A stretch of DNA of 32,363 nt, taken from NCBI GenBank assembly GCA_945901405.1, contig CAMDLH010000058.1, positions 1 to 32,363 of the forward strand. Reading direction: 5' to 3'. Under the pieces are notes generated by a model. It searched no databases and was not told where the DNA came from. It was given only the letters and a program-made list of their open reading frames with translations. Positions 6,463-30,784 of this stretch are shown piece by piece (within the stretch, counting starts at the first letter, position 1; each line of letters begins with the position of its first letter). The stretch is from Bordetella parapertussis (GTDB taxonomy: Bacteria; Pseudomonadota; Gammaproteobacteria; Burkholderiales; SG8-41). The position numbers were made by a program, and so were the translations under genes.

Positions 6463-7974
6463 ATGGATCAGGCCATACACGAACCTTACCGAGCCTATAA
6501 ACCCCGTCCGTTTCTCAAGGAGGAACGTGACGAAACGACAATTCTGTTCGGCGGCCTCCAGCGCCATGCCGAACGCTTCCTGCAGGGTGCGATGGAAAAT
6601 CTCGGTTACAAGGTCGAGATTTTGCCGGTCGCCACCAAGGAGGACCTGCTGACGGGGCGCGAGGTGGCCGACATCGGCCAGTGCTGCCCCACCAGCTTTA
6701 CCACCGGCAATCTCGCCAACTTCCTGCGCAACAAGGCCAAGGTCATGGGCGTGGAGGAAGTCGCAAAGAAATACGCCTACGTCACCGCCGGGTCGTGCGG
6801 CGCCTGCCGCTTTGGGCAATATCACCAAAGTTACGAACTCGCGCTGCGCAACACGGGCATGGAAAAATTCCGCATGTTCCTGATGGCGCAGGACGTGAAC
6901 CAGGCCGAGAACGAAGGCGGCGGGCTTGATTTGAATCCTGCCTTCATGATGGGCGCGGTATGGGCTGTCGCCGCCGCCGACGTGGTGCAGGATCTCGAAT
7001 ACCAGATTCGCCCGTATGAAGTGAACGCGGGCGAAACCAACCGCGTGATCGCCGAATGCGTGCAACTAGTCTACGAAGCTTTCCGCGATTCGACATTGAA
7101 AGCGCGTGGCTGGGATGCGCTGCTGTGGTATCTGACCACGCGCCGCTTTACCAGCGTGCTGAAAAAAGTGCACGCCAAGCTCGGCGCGATCGAAGTCGAC
7201 CGGCTGCGCGTCAAGCCGCTGGTCAAGATCACCGGCGAGTTTTATCTGCAAACCGTGGAAGGCGAGCCCAACTACAACATGCATAGCTGGCTCGAATCCG
7301 AAAACGCGCAGGTATATCCGGCGGCGACGACGATTTGGCTGGATTACCTGCTGCGCCTCGCCGATCAGGATTTCGAGGATCACATCGGCGTGAAATCCGG
7401 TGCGCGCATCAAATCGATGACGGTAAAAACCATGCAGGGCATGGTGCGCCGCACGTATAACCAGATGCGCCGCGCGCTGGGCCATCTGCCGAACGAGATT
7501 CCCGATCAGCGCATCATCCGCGAACTGGCGGCGCCTTATTTCCACAGCCGCATGAACGGCGGCGAAGGCGACATGCTGATCGGCAAATCGCTGTGGATAC
7601 ACCAGAAGAAAAAAGCGCACATGATCTGCGAACTCTCGCCGTATTCGTGCATGCCCAACACCATGAGCATAGGTGCGATGGCATCAGTACTTGGCAAGCA
7701 CCCCGATCTGCTCTACGCGCCCATCGAAATCAAGGGCGACTCCGAGATACACGCGCTGTCGCGCTGCCAGATGATTTTGACCGAAGCCAAACGCCGCGCG
7801 CAAAACGAGTACGAAGATGCGCTCGAACGCACCGGACTCACCACCGAGAAGGCGCGCGCGCTGCTCGACAAATATCCCGAAATGAAAATCGCCACCTATC
7901 GGCTGCCGCACGGCGGCGTGGCGGGCACCGCCGCGAAAATGGTGTTGCATCTGGCCGAGAGGGCCGCACAATGA
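6463..7974 (+). CDS. HgdB/DUF2229-superfamily component, C-terminal type (2-hydroxyacyl-CoA dehydratase-like)
   Basis: 503 aa. It resembles the C-terminal part of the large proteins annotated as acyl-CoA dehydratase activase-related, here encoded as a stand-alone gene. Cysteines in conserved-looking contexts are GQCCPTSF (C74, C75), GSCGACRFGQYH (C112, C115) and ICELSPYSCMPN (C389, C396); they are candidate ligands of an iron-sulfur cluster. The family includes 2-hydroxyacyl-CoA dehydratases, benzoyl-CoA reductase subunits and double-cubane [8Fe-9S] proteins. The role inferred is a catalytic or electron-accepting subunit reduced by the activase encoded next. Its stop codon overlaps the activase start (ATGA), so the two are translationally coupled. 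Substrate unknown. Confidence 0.8.
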   Translation: MDQAIHEPYRAYKPRPFLKEERDETTILFGGLQRHAERFLQGAMENLGYKVEILPVATKEDLLTGREVADIGQCCPTSFTTGNLANFLRNKAKVMGVEEVAKKYAYVTAGSCGACRFGQYHQSYELALRNTGMEKFRMFLMAQDVNQAENEGGGLDLNPAFMMGAVWAVAAADVVQDLEYQIRPYEVNAGETNRVIAECVQLVYEAFRDSTLKARGWDALLWYLTTRRFTSVLKKVHAKLGAIEVDRLRVKPLVKITGEFYLQTVEGEPNYNMHSWLESENAQVYPAATTIWLDYLLRLADQDFEDHIGVKSGARIKSMTVKTMQGMVRRTYNQMRRALGHLPNEIPDQRIIRELAAPYFHSRMNGGEGDMLIGKSLWIHQKKKAHMICELSPYSCMPNTMSIGAMASVLGKHPDLLYAPIEIKGDSEIHALSRCQMILTEAKRRAQNEYEDALERTGLTTEKARALLDKYPEMKIATYRLPHGGVAGTAAKMVLHLAERAAQ

Positions 7975-10376
7975 AAATCGTCGGACTCGATATCGGCTCC
8001 ACCACCATCAAGGCGATTTGTGTCGAAGACGGAAAGATTATCTGGCGCGACTACAAGCGTCACAATACCAAGCAGGCGGAATGCGTGGTGGAATACCTGG
8101 CGCGCATGGAAGCCGAATGCGGATTGAAGCCCGGCGTTGACCGTATTTTCGCCACCGGCTCCGGCGCAGGCCTGATCGGGCCGAATCTCGGCGCGAAACT
8201 GGTGCAGGAAGTGGTCGCGGTTGCGGCGGCGGTGGAGAAAATGCATCCGAACGTGCGCTTCGTGTCGGAGATCGGCGGCGAGGACATGAAAACCGTGTTC
8301 TTCACCCCCACCGGCGGCGGCAAGAACGCGGTGACTTCCACCACCACGAAAATTACGATTCCGATTCAGCCGGTGGACAAGATCGCCGCTCCGACGAAAA
8401 AGCACGCGCATAAAAAAGAAGGCGAGACGCGGCACTCATCGACCGTGATCAAATCGCGCGACGGCGGCACCAGCAAGCAGGTTTACATGCAGTCGGCGTG
8501 CAGCGGCGGTACCGGCACCTTCATCGAAAAAACCGCGCGCAAGCTCGAAGTCGAGTCCGAGCAGTTGGCGAAGATGAACTATACCGACATGAGCCTGCAC
8601 AAGATCAGTTCCAAGTGCGGTATTTTCGCCGAGACGGACGCCAACACGCTGGTGAAATCCGGCGTGCCGGTCGAGGAAATCATCGCTAGTTTGTATGAAG
8701 CCGTGGTCTATCAGAACCTCGCCTCGCTCACCAAGGGCAACACGCCGCTGCCCGAAGTGCTGCTGCTGGGCGGGCCGAACATGTTCTTCACCGGACTGCA
8801 ACAGGCTTGGCGCCACCATCTGAAAAAGATGTGGAAAGAGCGCAAGATCGAAATGCCCGAAGGCAAGACCGCCGACGACATGATTCTGATTCCGGCCGAC
8901 GCGCTCTACTATGCCTGCATCGGCTGCGTTGAGGTTGCCAAGGAGGAAAACGCGAACGTCGCGATCTATACCGGCCCGGAAAAACTGCACTGGTGGATCA
9001 ACGAAGGCCAGCACGAACAAAAAGCCAAGGAAGGCGGCACGGGTTTGATCGCCGGTGATGTCGAGTTCAAGGCGTTCCTGGATAAATACGCCAAGCCGCA
9101 TGCGGTGTCGCCGGTGCGCGACGCTTCAGATTCGGCGGTTGATGCGCGCACGGTGTTTCTCGGCTGTGATTTCGGCAGCACCACCGCCAAGGCCGTGGTG
9201 CTCTCGGATGAGAAAGAATTGCTGTTTCACTGCTACGCGCAATCCCGCGGCAATCCGATCGAGGACGCCAAGGCGATTTTGCGTCAGATCAAGGCGGCGG
9301 GTTATGAAAAAATCGGCGGCCTCGCAATCACCGGCTACGGCAAGGATTTGTTGAAAGACATCATCGGCGCCGATGCCGGCATTGTCGAAACCGTGGCGCA
9401 CGCCACGGCATCGCTGCATTTCTTCCCCGATGCGGATGTGATTTGCGATGTCGGCGGCACCGACGTAAAAATCATGCTGCTGCGCCAGGGCACGGTATCG
9501 GATTTCAGATTGAACTCGCAGTGCTCGTCGGGCAACGGCGCGTTCCTGCAAGGTGTGGCTGACCGTTACGCCACGCCACTCGACGAATACGCCGGCAAAG
9601 CATTTCAGGCGCGCTCGATTCCGACGCTGGCGATGGGCTGCGGCGTGTTCCTGCAATCGGACATCGTCAATCAGCAGCGCAAGGGCTGGTCGGCCGAAGA
9701 GATCATGGCTTCGCTCGCCGCCGTGCTGCCGCTGAATGTGTGGATCTATGCCGGGCAGTTGAACAATCTGGCTGCGGCTGGCAGAAAATTTATTCTTCAG
9801 GGCGGCACGCACCGCAACCTCGCGGTGGTCAAGGCGCAGGTTGATTTCATCAAGAACAAGGTGCCCAATGCCGAAGTCGTCGTGCATCCCTACCCTGGCG
9901 AAGCCGGTGCGATTGGCGCCGCGCTGTGCGCCATCGACTGGGCCAACCGAGGCGGCAAAGCGGCGTTCCGCGGCTTTGAAACCATCGAGGCGCTCACCTA
10001 CAAAAGCACCACCAACGAGCACACCACTTGCAACTGGTGCGCGGTGAATTGCCGCCGCACGTTCATCGACGTCGACTTGCCCGGTGCAAAAGGCCGCGAG
10101 TGGAGCAAGGTGCCGCTGGAACCGGGCTGGGAGCGCGTGATCAGCGGCAACACCTGCCCGAAAGGTCTGCTCGAAGACGCCAATGAAATGCGTGTGGTGA
10201 AGGATCAACTGGAGAAAACAAAACGTGCTCACCCGAATATTGCAGAGATGGTCCGTGAAGACGGATTCCGCCGCCCTAGAAGCGCGCAAGAAATTGCGGA
10301 TCGGGATTCCGAAGATTCTGAACATGTGGTCGACGCACCAGTTCTGGATGGGGTACCTGCAAGCGCTGGGCATTGA
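7971..10376 (+). CDS. Double ASKHA-domain ATP-dependent activase (BcrAD/BadFG/HgdC family)
   Basis: 801 aa with two tandem acetate/sugar kinase/Hsp70/actin-type ATPase domains. Domain 1 opens with DIGSTTIKA at D7 and domain 2 with CDFGSTTAKA at D400. Each has the activase cysteine pair that holds a bridging [4Fe-4S] cluster: C177 (ACSGGTGTF) with C216 (SKCGIFAETD), and C518 (QCSSGNGAF) with C557 (MGCGVFLQSD). The C-terminus carries a Cys cluster C687, C690, C694 and C729. Such activases use ATP hydrolysis to push one electron at very low potential into a partner dehydratase or reductase. The ATG at 7971 is chosen over a longer frame opening at 7593 because it overlaps the previous stop and starts at the nucleotide-binding motif. 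The last roughly 35 residues overlap the next gene and look non-homologous. Confidence 0.9.
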   Translation: MKIVGLDIGSTTIKAICVEDGKIIWRDYKRHNTKQAECVVEYLARMEAECGLKPGVDRIFATGSGAGLIGPNLGAKLVQEVVAVAAAVEKMHPNVRFVSEIGGEDMKTVFFTPTGGGKNAVTSTTTKITIPIQPVDKIAAPTKKHAHKKEGETRHSSTVIKSRDGGTSKQVYMQSACSGGTGTFIEKTARKLEVESEQLAKMNYTDMSLHKISSKCGIFAETDANTLVKSGVPVEEIIASLYEAVVYQNLASLTKGNTPLPEVLLLGGPNMFFTGLQQAWRHHLKKMWKERKIEMPEGKTADDMILIPADALYYACIGCVEVAKEENANVAIYTGPEKLHWWINEGQHEQKAKEGGTGLIAGDVEFKAFLDKYAKPHAVSPVRDASDSAVDARTVFLGCDFGSTTAKAVVLSDEKELLFHCYAQSRGNPIEDAKAILRQIKAAGYEKIGGLAITGYGKDLLKDIIGADAGIVETVAHATASLHFFPDADVICDVGGTDVKIMLLRQGTVSDFRLNSQCSSGNGAFLQGVADRYATPLDEYAGKAFQARSIPTLAMGCGVFLQSDIVNQQRKGWSAEEIMASLAAVLPLNVWIYAGQLNNLAAAGRKFILQGGTHRNLAVVKAQVDFIKNKVPNAEVVVHPYPGEAGAIGAALCAIDWANRGGKAAFRGFETIEALTYKSTTNEHTTCNWCAVNCRRTFIDVDLPGAKGREWSKVPLEPGWERVISGNTCPKGLLEDANEMRVVKDQLEKTKRAHPNIAEMVREDGFRRPRSAQEIADRDSEDSEHVVDAPVLDGVPASAGH

Positions 10377-11457
10377 ACCGCGCTACATAACCTGGTCGTC
10401 TGATAGCTCCGAGGATCAGGCACGCACGTTTGCCAAGGGCCGCGGCACGGTCGATTGTTGTTATCCGGTGAAGTGTGTCTCCGGGCATTACGGCGAGCTG
10501 CTCGCGCTCGACAAGCGCCGCAAGATCAACGTTCTGTTGGCACCCATGGTGTATTCGCTGCCTTCCTATCTGAAAGGCAGCGTCGTTGATTCCATCGCCT
10601 GCCCGCGCGTGATGGCCGCGCCCGAAAACATCAAATCGGGCTTTCTCAAAGAAGGCGACGCGTTCAAGGAACGAGACGTAATCTATTGCTCGCCGATTGC
10701 ATCGCTTGCCGATCCGGCGATCGTGCCCAAGCAATTGTTCGAGGGCATGAAGGACGCGATTCCTGGTCTCACCATGGAAGAAACCAAGCGCGCGGTCGAT
10801 GCAGGGTACGCCGCGCTGACCGCGTTCAACGAACGTGCGCGCGCCAAGAGCCGCAAGGTGCTAGAACACTGCGCGAAGACCGGCACGCCGTGCCTGTTGG
10901 TGGTGGCGCGTCCCTATCACATGGATCCCGGCATCGGTCACGAAATCGAAATCGACATGCAGGCGTACGGCTACCCGGTGTTGTGGGCGCAGTATCTGCC
11001 CATAGACGCCGATATTCTCGACTGGATGTTTGCACCCGATATTAGAGACGGCTACATCAAGAACACACTTGATGTCGCCGACGTGTGGCCCTCGTCGTAC
11101 AGCGCCAACACCAACGAGATTTTGTGGGGTGCCAAGTTCGCCGCGCGCATGCCGTGGATCGCCGGCGTGATACGGCTGGCAAGCTACGAATGCGGCATGG
11201 ATCAACCGACCTACACGCCGGTGCAGCAGATCGTCGAGCGTTCGGGCACGCTGTTCTTCTCGTTCCAGGAACTCGACTCCACCAAGCCCGCGGGCTCGGT
11301 GAAAATCCGCGTTGAAACCATCGCGCACTATCTCGAAAAATACGCATCCGAAATCATCGCGCGCAAGTTGAAAGTGTCGCAGCCTGGATGCCCGCTGTTG
11401 CCGGCGACTGATGAAAAAGATGTACCGCAGCCAGAGAAGGTTGCAGTACCCGCTTGA
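10225..11457 (+). CDS. DUF2229/HgdB-like component of the activase-linked reductase
   Basis: 410 aa from a GTG at 10225 preceded by GGAG 10 nt upstream; a second GTG at 10255 is also possible. The conserved part starts at about residue 22 with KKLRIGIPKILNMWSTHQFW, followed by the cysteine motif VDCCYPVKC (C78, C79, C84), a DSIACPRVM segment, ARPYHMDPGIGHE and ASYECGMDQPT. These blocks are typical of the DUF2229 and HgdB-like parts of activase-related proteins. It is probably the second cluster-bearing component of the reductase. It overlaps the activase reading frame by 152 nt in the +1 frame, which is unusual; see the finding on a possible ancestral fusion. Substrate unknown. Confidence 0.82.
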   Translation: MLTRILQRWSVKTDSAALEARKKLRIGIPKILNMWSTHQFWMGYLQALGIEPRYITWSSDSSEDQARTFAKGRGTVDCCYPVKCVSGHYGELLALDKRRKINVLLAPMVYSLPSYLKGSVVDSIACPRVMAAPENIKSGFLKEGDAFKERDVIYCSPIASLADPAIVPKQLFEGMKDAIPGLTMEETKRAVDAGYAALTAFNERARAKSRKVLEHCAKTGTPCLLVVARPYHMDPGIGHEIEIDMQAYGYPVLWAQYLPIDADILDWMFAPDIRDGYIKNTLDVADVWPSSYSANTNEILWGAKFAARMPWIAGVIRLASYECGMDQPTYTPVQQIVERSGTLFFSFQELDSTKPAGSVKIRVETIAHYLEKYASEIIARKLKVSQPGCPLLPATDEKDVPQPEKVAVPA

Positions 11458-13923: not shown

Positions 13924-14895
13924 GTGACTGTTTATTTCAAAATTGCTTCAGTGTGCGCTCTGGCGCTGTTTGCGGCGCACATGGCCAACGCCGCGCAGCC
14001 CTTTCCATCCAAACCAATTCGTCTGATCGTGGGTTCGCCGCCGGGCGGCGGCAACGATATCGTCGCGCGCATACTCGCCGCCAAACTCACCGAAAACTTC
14101 AGCCAGCAAGTGATTGTTGACAATCGCGGCGGCGCCAACGGCATCATCGGCATGGAACTCGCCGCGCGCGCCGCGCCCGACGGCCACACGCTCTACATGG
14201 GCACTACCGGCCATCTGAGTGTCAACGCGGCGTTGTACCCGAAGCTGCCATTCGATATCGAACGCGATTTTGTGCCGCTGACCGAAGTGGTGTCGTTGTC
14301 TTTTCTGATTTATCTGCATCCCTCCGTTCCGGCGAAAACACTCGGCGAACTGATCGCGCTTGCCAAGGCGAATCCCGGCAAGCTCGCATGGTCATCCAGC
14401 GGCAGCGGCGGCCTGCCGCATCTCACCGGCGAACTGCTAAAACTCAATGCAGGAATCAATACGCGCCGCATTCCGTATAAAGGCAGCTCGCCCGCGTTTA
14501 ACGACCTGCTCGCTGGGCAGGTTCAATACTGCATCGAGGCGGTGCCGATAGGCTTGCAGCACGTAAAGTCAGGCCGGTTGCTCGCGCTTGCCACCACCGG
14601 CGGCAAACGCCTGCCGTTCTTGCCCGACGTGCCCGCGCTCAATGAAACCATCGCGGGCCTCGAAGTCTATAACTGGTACGGCATGATGCTGCCGGCGGGA
14701 ACTCAACCCAATCTTGTTGCGCGTTTGCACGGCGAAATCATCAAGGTGATGAATGTGCCTGACACACGCGCGAAGCTGATCGCCCAAGGCACCGACCCGG
14801 TCGGCAGCACGCCCGCTGAATTCACGCTCCGCAGACGAGCGGAGCAGACAAAATGGGCGCGCGTGATCAAGGAAGCCAACATCAAGGCTGAGTAA
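13924..14895 (+). CDS. Bug/TctC-type periplasmic solute receptor 1
   Basis: 323 aa, GTG start with GGAG 9 nt upstream. N-terminal signal peptide (about residues 1-23, ending NAA) followed by the family hallmarks PFPSKPIRLIVGSPPGGG and the Asn-Arg-Gly-Gly loop (VDNRGGANG). The C-terminal part has the usual AEFTLRRRAEQTKWARVIKEANI ending, the short form of which is common in the family. Bug proteins bind carboxylates (citrate, dicarboxylates, nicotinate, aromatic acids) in the periplasm for tripartite tricarboxylate transporters. No TctA/TctB membrane genes are in the window, so it is an orphan receptor. It is 31 nt upstream of a racemase-fold gene on the same strand, suggesting that its ligand is that enzyme's substrate. 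Confidence 0.92.
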   Translation: MTVYFKIASVCALALFAAHMANAAQPFPSKPIRLIVGSPPGGGNDIVARILAAKLTENFSQQVIVDNRGGANGIIGMELAARAAPDGHTLYMGTTGHLSVNAALYPKLPFDIERDFVPLTEVVSLSFLIYLHPSVPAKTLGELIALAKANPGKLAWSSSGSGGLPHLTGELLKLNAGINTRRIPYKGSSPAFNDLLAGQVQYCIEAVPIGLQHVKSGRLLALATTGGKRLPFLPDVPALNETIAGLEVYNWYGMMLPAGTQPNLVARLHGEIIKVMNVPDTRAKLIAQGTDPVGSTPAEFTLRRRAEQTKWARVIKEANIKAE

Positions 14896-17573: not shown

Positions 17574-18557
17574 TTACCCCAGGCGTATGCCTGCTTGCTG
17601 AATTACCTTCAGCCATTTTGCGAACTGCTCGGCATTCAGTTTGCCGAGCTCCGCCGGCGTCGAGGTGCGCAGCTCGATGCCTTCGCCGGCGAGCCGCTGC
17701 CTGACTTCCGGCGTGGAAAGCCGCTGAATCACTTCGCGATTCAAGCGGTTGATGATGTCGGGCGGCGTGCCGGCGGGCGCGACCACCGAATAAAACTGTT
17801 CAAGCTCGAAACCGCGCAACCCGGATTCGTCGACCGTGGGAATATCCGGCGCGAGCGAGGTGCGTTTAAGACTGGTGACACCCAGCGCGCGCACGCGCTT
17901 CTCGCGCACTTGCGGCAGCGCGGTCAAGAAGTTGGCGATCATCACGAACGTCTCGCCTTGCAGCAGCGACATCATCGCGGGCGCGCCGCCCTTGTACGGC
18001 ACGTGCAGCATTTTCACCTGCGCCAGGGCCTGAAACAATTCACCGCCGAGATGCGCCGGGCCGCCCTGCCCCGTGGACGAATACGTAATCTTGCCTTCGC
18101 TCGCCTTTGCCAGCCGTATCAGATCGCGCACGTTCTCCGCCGGAAGCGACGGATGCGTCACCAGCATATACGCCGTGGTGCCGATCAGCGAGATCGGCGC
18201 AAAATCCTTCACCGGATCGTACTTGCGATCGACAATCAGCGCGGGGCCGGTGATCAAGGTCGCGGCACTGCCGAGCAGCAACATGTAGCCATCCTTCGGC
18301 GCACGCGCCACCATCTCCGCCGCAATGCCGCCGCCCGCGCCGCCGCGATTGTCGGGCACAATTTGCTGGCCCAGCGCGGGGCTGACTTTTTCCGCGATCA
18401 GGCGTGCGACGGTATCGGTGCCGCCGCCGGGGGCGTTGGGCACGATCAGGCGGATGGGTTTTGAGGGGTAGGTTTGGCCATGGGCAATAGGCGCGGTTGC
18501 TGGAATTCCCAGCATGGTCACCACACAAACAACGCTGATTTTGGAGTTTCTGTTCAT
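17574..18557 (-). CDS. Bug/TctC-type periplasmic solute receptor 2
   Basis: 327 aa from the ATG at 18557, which has AAAGGAA about 9 nt upstream. The ATG at 18581 lies inside a short extragenic palindrome and is less likely. Signal peptide (about residues 1-28, ending HGQ), then TYPSKPIRLIVPNAPGGG and the DNRGGAGGG loop typical of the family. Probably co-transcribed with the dehydrogenase gene ending at 15722. Ligand unknown. Confidence 0.91.
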   Translation of the reverse strand: MNRNSKISVVCVVTMLGIPATAPIAHGQTYPSKPIRLIVPNAPGGGTDTVARLIAEKVSPALGQQIVPDNRGGAGGGIAAEMVARAPKDGYMLLLGSAATLITGPALIVDRKYDPVKDFAPISLIGTTAYMLVTHPSLPAENVRDLIRLAKASEGKITYSSTGQGGPAHLGGELFQALAQVKMLHVPYKGGAPAMMSLLQGETFVMIANFLTALPQVREKRVRALGVTSLKRTSLAPDIPTVDESGLRGFELEQFYSVVAPAGTPPDIINRLNREVIQRLSTPEVRQRLAGEGIELRTSTPAELGKLNAEQFAKWLKVIQQAGIRLG

Positions 18558-18588
18558 TGCAAATATTCCTTTATTGCGCATTCCGCCA

Positions 18589-21680: not shown

Positions 21681-22640
21681 TCACTCCGCCCGCAACCGCG
21701 CCGCGCCCACAACGATGCGCCATTTCTCAAGATCGCTGTCGATCAACTTTGCGAATTCGGCGCGCGTGGAGGAGCGCGCCTCGCCGCCCTGGTTGGCGAA
21801 GCGCTCGCGCACGTCGGCACCGGCTACGATTTGCACGAGCTCGGTGTTAAGCCTGTCAAGGATGCTCGCGGACACGCCCGCGGGCGCGAGCAGGCCGTAC
21901 CATGTCGCGGTCTCGAATTCAGGCAGCCCCTGCTCTGCTATCGGCCTCACGTCGGGCAAAACCGCCACGCGCTTGCGGCTGGTGACGCCGAGCGCCCTTA
22001 ACTTGCCGCTCTTGATCAGCGGCACGGCGTTGGTCATGCCGGACATCACCAGCTCGATTTGCCCGCCCGCAAGATCGATCATCGCCGGCGCCACGCCCTT
22101 GTAAGGCACGTGCGTCATGTCGATCTTCGCCTGATACTTGAATAGTTCCGTCACCAGATTGATCACGCTGCCCACCCCGGAAGAGCCATACCGCAGCTTG
22201 CCCGGATTCGCGCGCGCCAGCGCGATCAGCTCCTGCACCGAATTCGCCGCGACCGACGGGTGCACGGCAAGCACGCCGGGCTGCTCGAATATCAGCGCAA
22301 TCGGCGCGAGATCGCGTTTCACGTCATAAGGCGATTTGCGATTCACCGCGGCATTCATGGTGATCGCGGTCGATGCCACCAGCAGCGTATAACCATCCGG
22401 CGTTGATTTCGCCGCGAGATCGACGCCCACCACCGAGCCGCCACCCTCGCGATTGAACACCACCATGTTCTGGCCGAGCCGCTGGCCCAGACGTTCGGCG
22501 ATGGTGCGGCCCAAGATGTCGGCCACACCCGCGGGTGCGTACGGCACGATCACGCGTACCGGCTTGGCGGGGTAATCCTGCGCGAACGCAACTCCCGCCA
22601 ACGCCAACGCCACAAATCCGACTTTTGCAAACGACACCAT
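21681..22640 (-). CDS. Bug/TctC-type periplasmic solute receptor 3
   Basis: 319 aa. Signal peptide (about residues 1-20, ending AFA), then QDYPAKPVRVIVPYAPAG, with the family GGG motif replaced by AGV in APAGVAD. The FNREGGGSV loop replaces the usual DNR-GG. The ATG lies 4 nt after the stop of an enoyl-CoA hydratase gene, so the two are coupled; the AAGGCAG before the ATG is inside the hydratase end. Same architecture as the pair at 29819-31559. Ligand unknown, but it may be the free acid whose CoA ester the hydratase handles (inference). Confidence 0.91.
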   Translation of the reverse strand: MVSFAKVGFVALALAGVAFAQDYPAKPVRVIVPYAPAGVADILGRTIAERLGQRLGQNMVVFNREGGGSVVGVDLAAKSTPDGYTLLVASTAITMNAAVNRKSPYDVKRDLAPIALIFEQPGVLAVHPSVAANSVQELIALARANPGKLRYGSSGVGSVINLVTELFKYQAKIDMTHVPYKGVAPAMIDLAGGQIELVMSGMTNAVPLIKSGKLRALGVTSRKRVAVLPDVRPIAEQGLPEFETATWYGLLAPAGVSASILDRLNTELVQIVAGADVRERFANQGGEARSSTRAEFAKLIDSDLEKWRIVVGAARLRAE

Positions 22641-29818: not shown

Positions 29819-30784
29819 TCACTCCACGCGAATATTCGCCTCGCGCACCACCCTGCTCCACTTTACGTGCTCGCCCTTGATAAACACCGCGAATTCCTCC
29901 GGCGTATTGCCGATGGCGACGGAGCCATCGAACGCGAGGCGTTCGACGGTGTTGGGCATGCGCAGAATTTTGGCGATCTCGCCGTGCAGCCGATCGATGA
30001 TGGCGCGCGGCGTGCCGGCGGGCACCATGATGCCGTTCCAGGTGCTTGCGTCGTAGCCGGGCAGCCCCGCTTCGGTGAACGTCGGCACATCGGGCACGGC
30101 ATTGGAACGTTTCGCCCCGGTGACGGCAAGCGCGCGTATCTTGCCCGCGCGTATGTGCGGCACCACCGCCAGCGGCGCGCCCATCATCGACTGCACCTGC
30201 CCCGCAAGCAGATCGTTGATCGCGGGCGGCGCTCCGCGATACGGCACGTGCACGATATTGATCTTGGTCATCAGGCGCAGCAATTCGCCCGCGAGGTGGC
30301 CGGAGCCGCCCGGCCCCGAGGTCGCGTAGTTGATGTCGCCTGGCCGCGCGCGCGCAAGCGCCAGGTATTCGTTAAGCGTTTTCGCCGGCAGCGTGGGGTG
30401 CACTTGCAGCAGCAGCGGCTGCTGCGTCGCCAGCGTCACCGGCAGAAAATCGCGCTGCGCGTCGTACGGCATGCTCTTGTGCACGTAGGTGGACAGCACC
30501 AGCGTGGTGATGCCGCCCAGATAAAACGTGTAGCCGTCGGGCGGCGACTTCGCCGCAAGCTGCCCGCCGATCAGCCCTCCCCCGCCCGGACGGTTGTCGA
30601 CCACGACCTGATGTCCCCACGTCTCGGCAAGGCGCTGGGCGATCAGCCGCGCCACGATGTCGGTGGGGCCGCCGGCCGGGAACGGCAATATCAGTTTCAT
30701 CGGCTTCGCGGGATACGGCTGTGCGCCGGCCTGTGCCGCCGCACACAGCAGCGCACCAATGATGACACCGCGAGTCAGCCTCAT
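29819..30784 (-). CDS. Bug/TctC-type periplasmic solute receptor 4
   Basis: 321 aa. Signal peptide (about residues 1-21, ending AQAGA), QPYPAKPMKLILPFPAGGP, DNRPGGGG loop and the usual C-terminal VKWSRVVREANIRVE. The ATG is 4 nt after the stop of a crotonase gene (TAA TTCG ATG), the same arrangement as Bug receptor 3. Orphan receptor. Ligand unknown. Confidence 0.91.
   Translation of the reverse strand: MRLTRGVIIGALLCAAAQAGAQPYPAKPMKLILPFPAGGPTDIVARLIAQRLAETWGHQVVVDNRPGGGGLIGGQLAAKSPPDGYTFYLGGITTLVLSTYVHKSMPYDAQRDFLPVTLATQQPLLLQVHPTLPAKTLNEYLALARARPGDINYATSGPGGSGHLAGELLRLMTKINIVHVPYRGAPPAINDLLAGQVQSMMGAPLAVVPHIRAGKIRALAVTGAKRSNAVPDVPTFTEAGLPGYDASTWNGIMVPAGTPRAIIDRLHGEIAKILRMPNTVERLAFDGSVAIGNTPEEFAVFIKGEHVKWSRVVREANIRVE

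Follow-up and report, generated by a model that had tools for sequence, protein, structure and literature searches.

A conserved, permuted three-gene variant of the PlsA/PlsR-Ger reductase family in a betaproteobacterial operon

The window, meaning the whole 32,363-nucleotide stretch of betaproteobacterial DNA that was analysed, carries three genes, P1, P2, and P3, in a single tight operon at 6463-11457 on the + strand, where an earlier note had placed three linked genes. The genes and the features within them are as follows.

6463..7974, + strand: P1, or Red2 (PlsR-equivalent), HgdB-like reductase subunit; open reading frame with ATG at 6463, 503 aa
7971..10376, + strand: P2, fused double activase, 801 aa; PF01869, TIGR00241
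8325..8471, + strand: insertion of 49 residues within activase 1 (P2 residues 119-167), from alignment
9156..9932, + strand: second activase half of P2 (approximately residues 396-654); its cluster-type cysteines are Cys 518 and 557
10029..10157, + strand: linker CxxCxxxC...C (C687, C690, C694, C729) at the activase 2/Red1 junction, from sequence
10225..11457, + strand: P3, or Red1, DUF2229, HgdB-like reductase subunit; 410 aa, PF09989

A clear ribosome-binding site (AAGGAG) lies upstream of the P1 ATG at 6463. The P2 open frame begins at 7593 and would encode 927 aa; the most likely coding start, however, is an ATG at 7971 (MKIVGLDIGSTT), which shares 4 bases with the P1 stop and gives 801 aa. 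P3 likely starts at GTG 10225, within the 3' end of P2, and with this start the two genes overlap by about 150 bases. The 49-residue insertion in activase 1 was found in the window copy and in at most two more of 70 aligned rows.

P2 matched PF01869 (BcrAD_BadFG; Pfam) in both halves, in three stretches with 231.7 bits, and TIGR00241 (NCBIfam). Its relatives of solved structure in the PDB are activases (HgdC 1hux, 4eht, MbdQ/MbdP, and DCCP-R), in keeping with the fused double activase that the earlier note had described alongside two HgdB-like subunits. P3 matched PF09989 (DUF2229; Pfam) with 126.6 bits, against a cut-off of 29.4. No Pfam or NCBIfam model matched P1, neither P1 nor P3 matched the HGD-D or Bcr/Bzd reductase-subunit families in these collections, and the PDB gave no significant sequence match to P1 or P3, whether searched singly or as profiles. 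Because sequence searches alone were insufficient, a fold comparison was required for the HgdB-type assignment. AlphaFold (AF2) models were built on alignments of 41 sequences for P1 (pLDDT 88.1, pTM 0.89) and 36 sequences for P3 (pLDDT 89.0, pTM 0.87). Both models had DCCP, BzdN, and 2-hydroxyisocaproyl-CoA dehydratase as top Foldseek matches, the best match of P1 being DCCP from the DCCP:DCCP-R complex. With VIA-align, P3 scored Z 14.3 against HadC (3o3m_D; rmsd 4.2, 272 aligned), 13.4 against BzdN, and 12.9 against DCCP, with unrelated folds at or below 8.8; the corresponding values for P1 were 10.4 (rmsd 4.9, 285 aligned), 9.5, and 9.3, with unrelated folds at or below 6.6. Judged by their predicted folds, P1 and P3 are both HgdB-type (BCR/HAD) subunits. 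Profile searching, proposed in the earlier note as a check, identified P3 as DUF2229 and left P1 without a Pfam match; taken literally, this is for P1 the outcome that the note had named as refuting, but it is overruled by the fold of P1 and by its alignment to a fused relative.

The same bacterial order also has fused single proteins of 1467-1469 aa. When aligned to the 1469-aa relative, P2 fell on residues 52-664, P3 on 719-1031, and P1 on 1039-1455. The fused order is therefore activase-activase-Red1(P3)-Red2(P1), and the window order, Red2/activase-activase/Red1, is permuted, which bears out the proposal that the parts of one large protein had been split with the C-terminal part placed first. 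Profiles of P1, P2, and P3 also matched a 1475-aa Listeria protein, two Collinsella copies, a Haliovirga protein, and a Fusobacterium set (E about 1e-22 to 1e-128), homologues used here as stand-ins for the tested T. maritima, D. alkenivorans, and C. perfringens enzymes. The Fusobacterium set has two genes, Act-Act-Red1 (975 aa) and Red2 (404 aa); the P1 profile matched residues 18-401 of the second (E 4.7e-22) as well as the C-terminal part of the Listeria, Collinsella, and Haliovirga fused proteins. The PlsR-type label for P1 comes from the published two-gene layout. In place of the PlsA/Ger layout, in which Act-Act-Red1-Red2 is encoded in that order by one or two genes, the window has three genes with Red2 first. 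Because the domain order differs, we classed the set as a permuted variant of the family, neither PlsA nor Ger proper.

Besides the window and L020, we compared 80 named loci (labelled L with a number) from public genomes. All 58 loci scored complete had the three genes on a single strand in the order P1-P2-P3, so the arrangement is not due to chance; a 59th locus, L066, was scored P2-P1-P3 because its P2 open reading frame start was over-extended upstream. In a second tree, from which Monoglobus, Paraclostridium, and L023 were left out for their very long branches, the permuted sets formed one clade (SH-aLRT 100) spanning Pseudomonadota, Rokubacteria, Acidobacteriota, Aquificota, and others. 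L063 was set aside; two stop codons interrupt its P1 frame (L063:676-2148), which is either a decayed copy or a sequencing error. The sister group is an Aquificota clade (SH-aLRT 100) with unpermuted or dispersed genes, either three genes in canonical order (L131) or an Act-Act-Red1 gene (L146-L149) with the Red2 gene elsewhere in the genome (L129, L133, L135, L138). Fused PlsA-type proteins branch outside both clades, and the deep position is provisional because the intervening branch is long and the method was quick.

Other layouts were seen among these loci. The canonical-order Aquificota set (L131:6591-11775) has a TetR gene upstream, and its cysteine linker sits on the Red1 gene rather than the activase gene, indicating a different break point. 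One Rokubacterial and two acidobacterial genomes with a permuted set (L150, L151, and L152) carry a second, distant PlsA-PlsR-like pair of about 1050-1080 aa and 450-474 aa. In Monoglobus (L111:2995-6212), a different three-gene split, Red1-Red2-single activase, is followed by a small TSCPD-domain gene.

P1 homologues were present in 53 of 101 Aquificota genomes and in few among hundreds of Pseudomonadota. Across 26 Aquificota genomes, DUF2229 was encoded in 14/14 with P1 and 0/12 without it, a co-occurrence with an exact probability of about 1e-7, although these genomes are related and so not independent. Most permuted-form genomes (26/30) had no second DUF2229 beyond the split set. Among 14 control genomes, PF09989 was confined to those of Thermotoga maritima, Lactococcus lactis, Thermus, and Deinobacterium, which fits an ester-reductase family, since T. 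maritima and L. lactis represent lineages with tested Ger/PlsA. We found no description of the permuted three-gene arrangement in the literature searched, which excluded the primary Ger and C. perfringens PlsA papers.

The cysteines separate features of the whole family from those of the permuted clade. C74, C115, and C396 of P1 and C79, C126, and C323 of P3 were invariant in every architecture examined, with spacings similar to those of BzdO Cys95/128/380, which hold a catalytic [4Fe-4S]-OH2 cluster (PMC11971306). The candidate ligands listed in the earlier note thus included four invariant residues (C74, C115, and C396 of P1; C79 of P3) together with five that are not (C75, C112, and C389 of P1; C78 and C84 of P3), and C126 and C323 were missed. 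C75, C112, C389, and C435 of P1 are conserved within the permuted clade and not family-wide; C435 of P1 and C78, C216, and C223 of P3 are clade-specific. P1 of this clade has six cysteines arranged as three pairs (74/75, 112/115, and 389/396) plus C435, and because C75, C112, C389, and C435 are retained there, a double cubane is possible in these proteins. In P2, each activase half has a cysteine pair as in HgdC (177 and 216 in the first, 518 and 557 in the second). The linker CxxCxxxC...C, absent from the earlier note, recurs in nearly all homologues whatever their architecture, including the fused and Aquificota proteins, and is a candidate for an extra Fe-S (or Zn) site.

Neighbouring gene families differed between loci, save for a TetR gene (12 loci), which adjoins the set in several phyla, and an FA_desaturase_2-like gene (14 loci). 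The TetR protein beside an acidobacterial permuted set was 39% identical over 168 residues to the one beside L131, which indicates that the regulator was retained while gene order changed. The TetR beside the Collinsella fused copy is of another kind, and the idea of a regulator in common with the permuted set found no support (28% identity over only 60 residues). At L049:9172-9993 and at 13 further loci, nearly all Rokubacterial, the gene immediately upstream of P1 codes for the FA_desaturase_2-like protein (PF03405, 24.9 bits); it mostly ends no more than about ten bases from P1, and the two genes often overlap. Here an enzyme type that uses oxygen neighbours a reductase type that is sensitive to it. 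The divergent FadE-type gene of the window recurs at two other fetched loci, and the downstream glycerophosphodiester phosphodiesterase gene of the window at one. The window also contains four TctC/Bug-like tripartite tricarboxylate receptor genes, assigned by sequence resemblance (13924-14895, 17574-18581, 21681-22640, and 29819-30784) with acyl-CoA dehydrogenase, electron-transfer flavoprotein, and enoyl-CoA hydratase-like genes lying between them.

The operon is a permuted three-gene member of the PlsA/PlsR-Ger family, as its family matches and architecture show. Among its relatives, the fused and two-gene forms correspond to the lipid-ester reductases PlsA/PlsR and Ger (PMC9702350, PMC8788747, PMC11150832, PMC13274423), a link overlooked when the set was put forward as a candidate for a novel enzyme system; it is a real and conserved variant of a known enzyme family and not a wholly new system. 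In C. perfringens, PlsA and PlsR convert diacyl phospholipids to plasmalogens, from ester to vinyl ether, and the pls genes of facultative anaerobes have a TetR gene upstream (PMC9702350). Single-ORF PlsA from Lactococcus and others confers plasmalogen formation on E. coli (PMC12838417). The Thermotoga homologue was first proposed to make alkyl ethers and Ger was then shown to do so (PMC8788747, PMC11150832, PMC13274423), with T. maritima and D. alkenivorans Ger yielding alkyl ethers in E. coli (PMC11150832).

The window set has the same four modules (two activases, a DUF2229 reductase, and a second reductase) as PlsA-PlsR of C. perfringens in its published layout, the Fusobacterium two-gene set, and the Listeria and Collinsella fused proteins. 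It shares the linker and universal cysteines of the homologues compared here, and P1 is the equivalent of the second gene. It differs in having three genes with Red2 first, where PlsA-PlsR has Act-Act-Red1 followed by Red2 in one or two genes, and in being encoded by bacteria that respire. Identity between the permuted clade and tested-type enzymes is about 20-28% over a long branch. Ger of Thermotoga maritima and Desulfatibacillum alkenivorans, likened to our set by published description, is reported as PlsA-like with two activation domains and makes alkyl ethers; it has the same double activase, DUF2229, and second reductase, but as one polypeptide of about 150-160 kDa from anaerobes rather than three proteins. 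The Aquificota PlsA-like and PlsR-like proteins of the sister clade have the same parts, and L131 the same TetR subfamily, but their genes are unpermuted or have the PlsR-like gene elsewhere in the genome.

By analogy with these relatives, we propose that the set encodes a three-subunit, ATP-driven reductase that turns lipid acyl esters into ethers, a reading to which we assign a probability of roughly 0.6. A lipid substrate is inferred because tested relatives act on phospholipid esters and because the set is present in Aquificota, a phylum with known glycerol ethers. Alkyl glycerol ethers are found in Hydrogenobacter and other Aquificales (PMC3111988, PMC4339782), in species that could not be matched one-to-one to the genomes searched. 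The co-occurrence of P1 with DUF2229 in Aquificota, the absence of a second DUF2229 from most permuted-form genomes, and the TetR gene beside the set, as at pls loci, speak for the same reading. In the proposed mechanism, the activase pair would receive an electron from ferredoxin or a comparable donor, and ATP hydrolysis would drive it through the bridging [4Fe-4S] cluster of the activases (Cys 177/216/518/557) into the iron-sulphur clusters of Red1 and Red2, which three cysteines in each subunit would ligate. At the super-reduced centre, the ester carbonyl of a fatty acyl chain on the glycerol of a phospholipid would then be reduced, and loss of water or a further reduction step would give a vinyl or alkyl ether. 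Respiring bacteria of the permuted clade may in this way form glycerol ether lipids of the 1-alkyl (or alkenyl) kind. The low-potential, ATP-driven electron delivery envisaged in the earlier note is probably right, on the same analogy.

Besides the distance from tested-type enzymes and the unmatched Aquificales species, other points count against the ether-lipid reading. Neighbours are not conserved and give no hint of complex lipids, and the oxygen sensitivity of tested relatives, several of which lose activity in oxygen (PMC12838417), sits poorly with carriers that respire. A haem-copper oxidase was encoded in 30/30 split-set genomes tested, compared to 3/6 fused-form genomes, although the presence of an oxidase shows only the capacity to respire oxygen and says nothing about the enzyme working in oxygen. 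Named carriers include Roseomonas, Falsiroseomonas bella, Caldovatus sediminis, Actibacterium pelagium, Serpentinimonas, and Aquificaceae.

Since the long branch and low identity to tested-type enzymes mean that the substrate may differ from a lipid ester, other readings were weighed. Reduction or dehydration of an acyl-CoA or aroyl-CoA ester, as by benzoyl-CoA reductase or 2-hydroxyacyl-CoA dehydratase, is unlikely in our view. The fold and tri-cysteine pattern do resemble BzdO and HadBC, the activase kin include HgdC and MbdQ, and class I benzoyl-CoA reductases (BzdNOPQ/MbdONPQ) likewise combine an activase pair with two HgdB-like subunits. These benzoyl-CoA reductases, however, have two separate activase genes and lack DUF2229, a hallmark of PlsA/Ger that the nearest sequence relatives of our set possess, and the missing matches of P1 and P3 to HGD-D and Bcr/Bzd subunit families also argue against this function. 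The earlier note had drawn its CoA ester from the surrounding genes, and acyl-CoA ligase, FadE-type acyl-CoA dehydrogenase, and enoyl-CoA hydratase-like genes do lie near the set in the window. Because neighbours vary across loci and CoA-metabolism genes are not kept among them, we rejected neighbouring genes as a substrate clue, and the surroundings lend a CoA-ester substrate no support.

It is slightly less likely again that the permuted clade diverged in aerobic bacteria to another ester or thioester, such as acyl-ACP or another lipid ester. The long stem branch, the clade-specific cysteines of P1 and P3, and the position of most Rokubacterial copies next to the desaturase-like gene would suit such a change, but nothing positive was found for any such substrate, and the Aquificota distribution fits glycerol ethers. 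Least probable is a double-cubane-type small-molecule reductase, or an electron-delivering reactivator of another metalloenzyme, like DCCP: despite the Foldseek match of P1, the shared reductase-subunit fold and activase, and paired cysteines that, counted with C435, might hold an [8Fe-9S] cluster at the clade level, only three of these cysteines persist family-wide, and DCCP, itself without a known physiological role, forms a homodimer, has its single activase (DCCP-R) as a separate protein, and lacks DUF2229.

A tentative extension of the lipid ester-to-ether proposal, which we regard as doubtful, is that the permuted sets form an ancient, separate class of three-subunit reductases in oxygen-respiring bacteria. 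With a double cubane in P1 and clade-specific cysteines, such enzymes would reduce an ester, of a membrane lipid or of another kind, at very low potential in respiring cells, and could be the source of the alkyl ethers of Aquificaceae and of aerobic phyla from soil and freshwater.

Most known ether-lipid genes of the PlsA/Ger type come from anaerobes and facultative anaerobes, while alkyl glycerol ethers also occur in aerobic or microaerobic bacteria, Hydrogenobacter being one example. What makes the permuted set interesting is that it is spread among respiring bacteria and has a testable tie to their ether lipids. As a naturally split, separately expressible version, it differs from the single-chain form, which tends toward inclusion bodies (PMC11150832), and it raises the question of how an iron-sulphur enzyme with a super-reduced centre can function in cells that respire. 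The set would provide a candidate ether-lipid enzyme for respiring Aquificota, Acidobacteriota, Rokubacteria, and Proteobacteria, and would widen the list of possible ether-lipid producers behind environmental lipid proxies.
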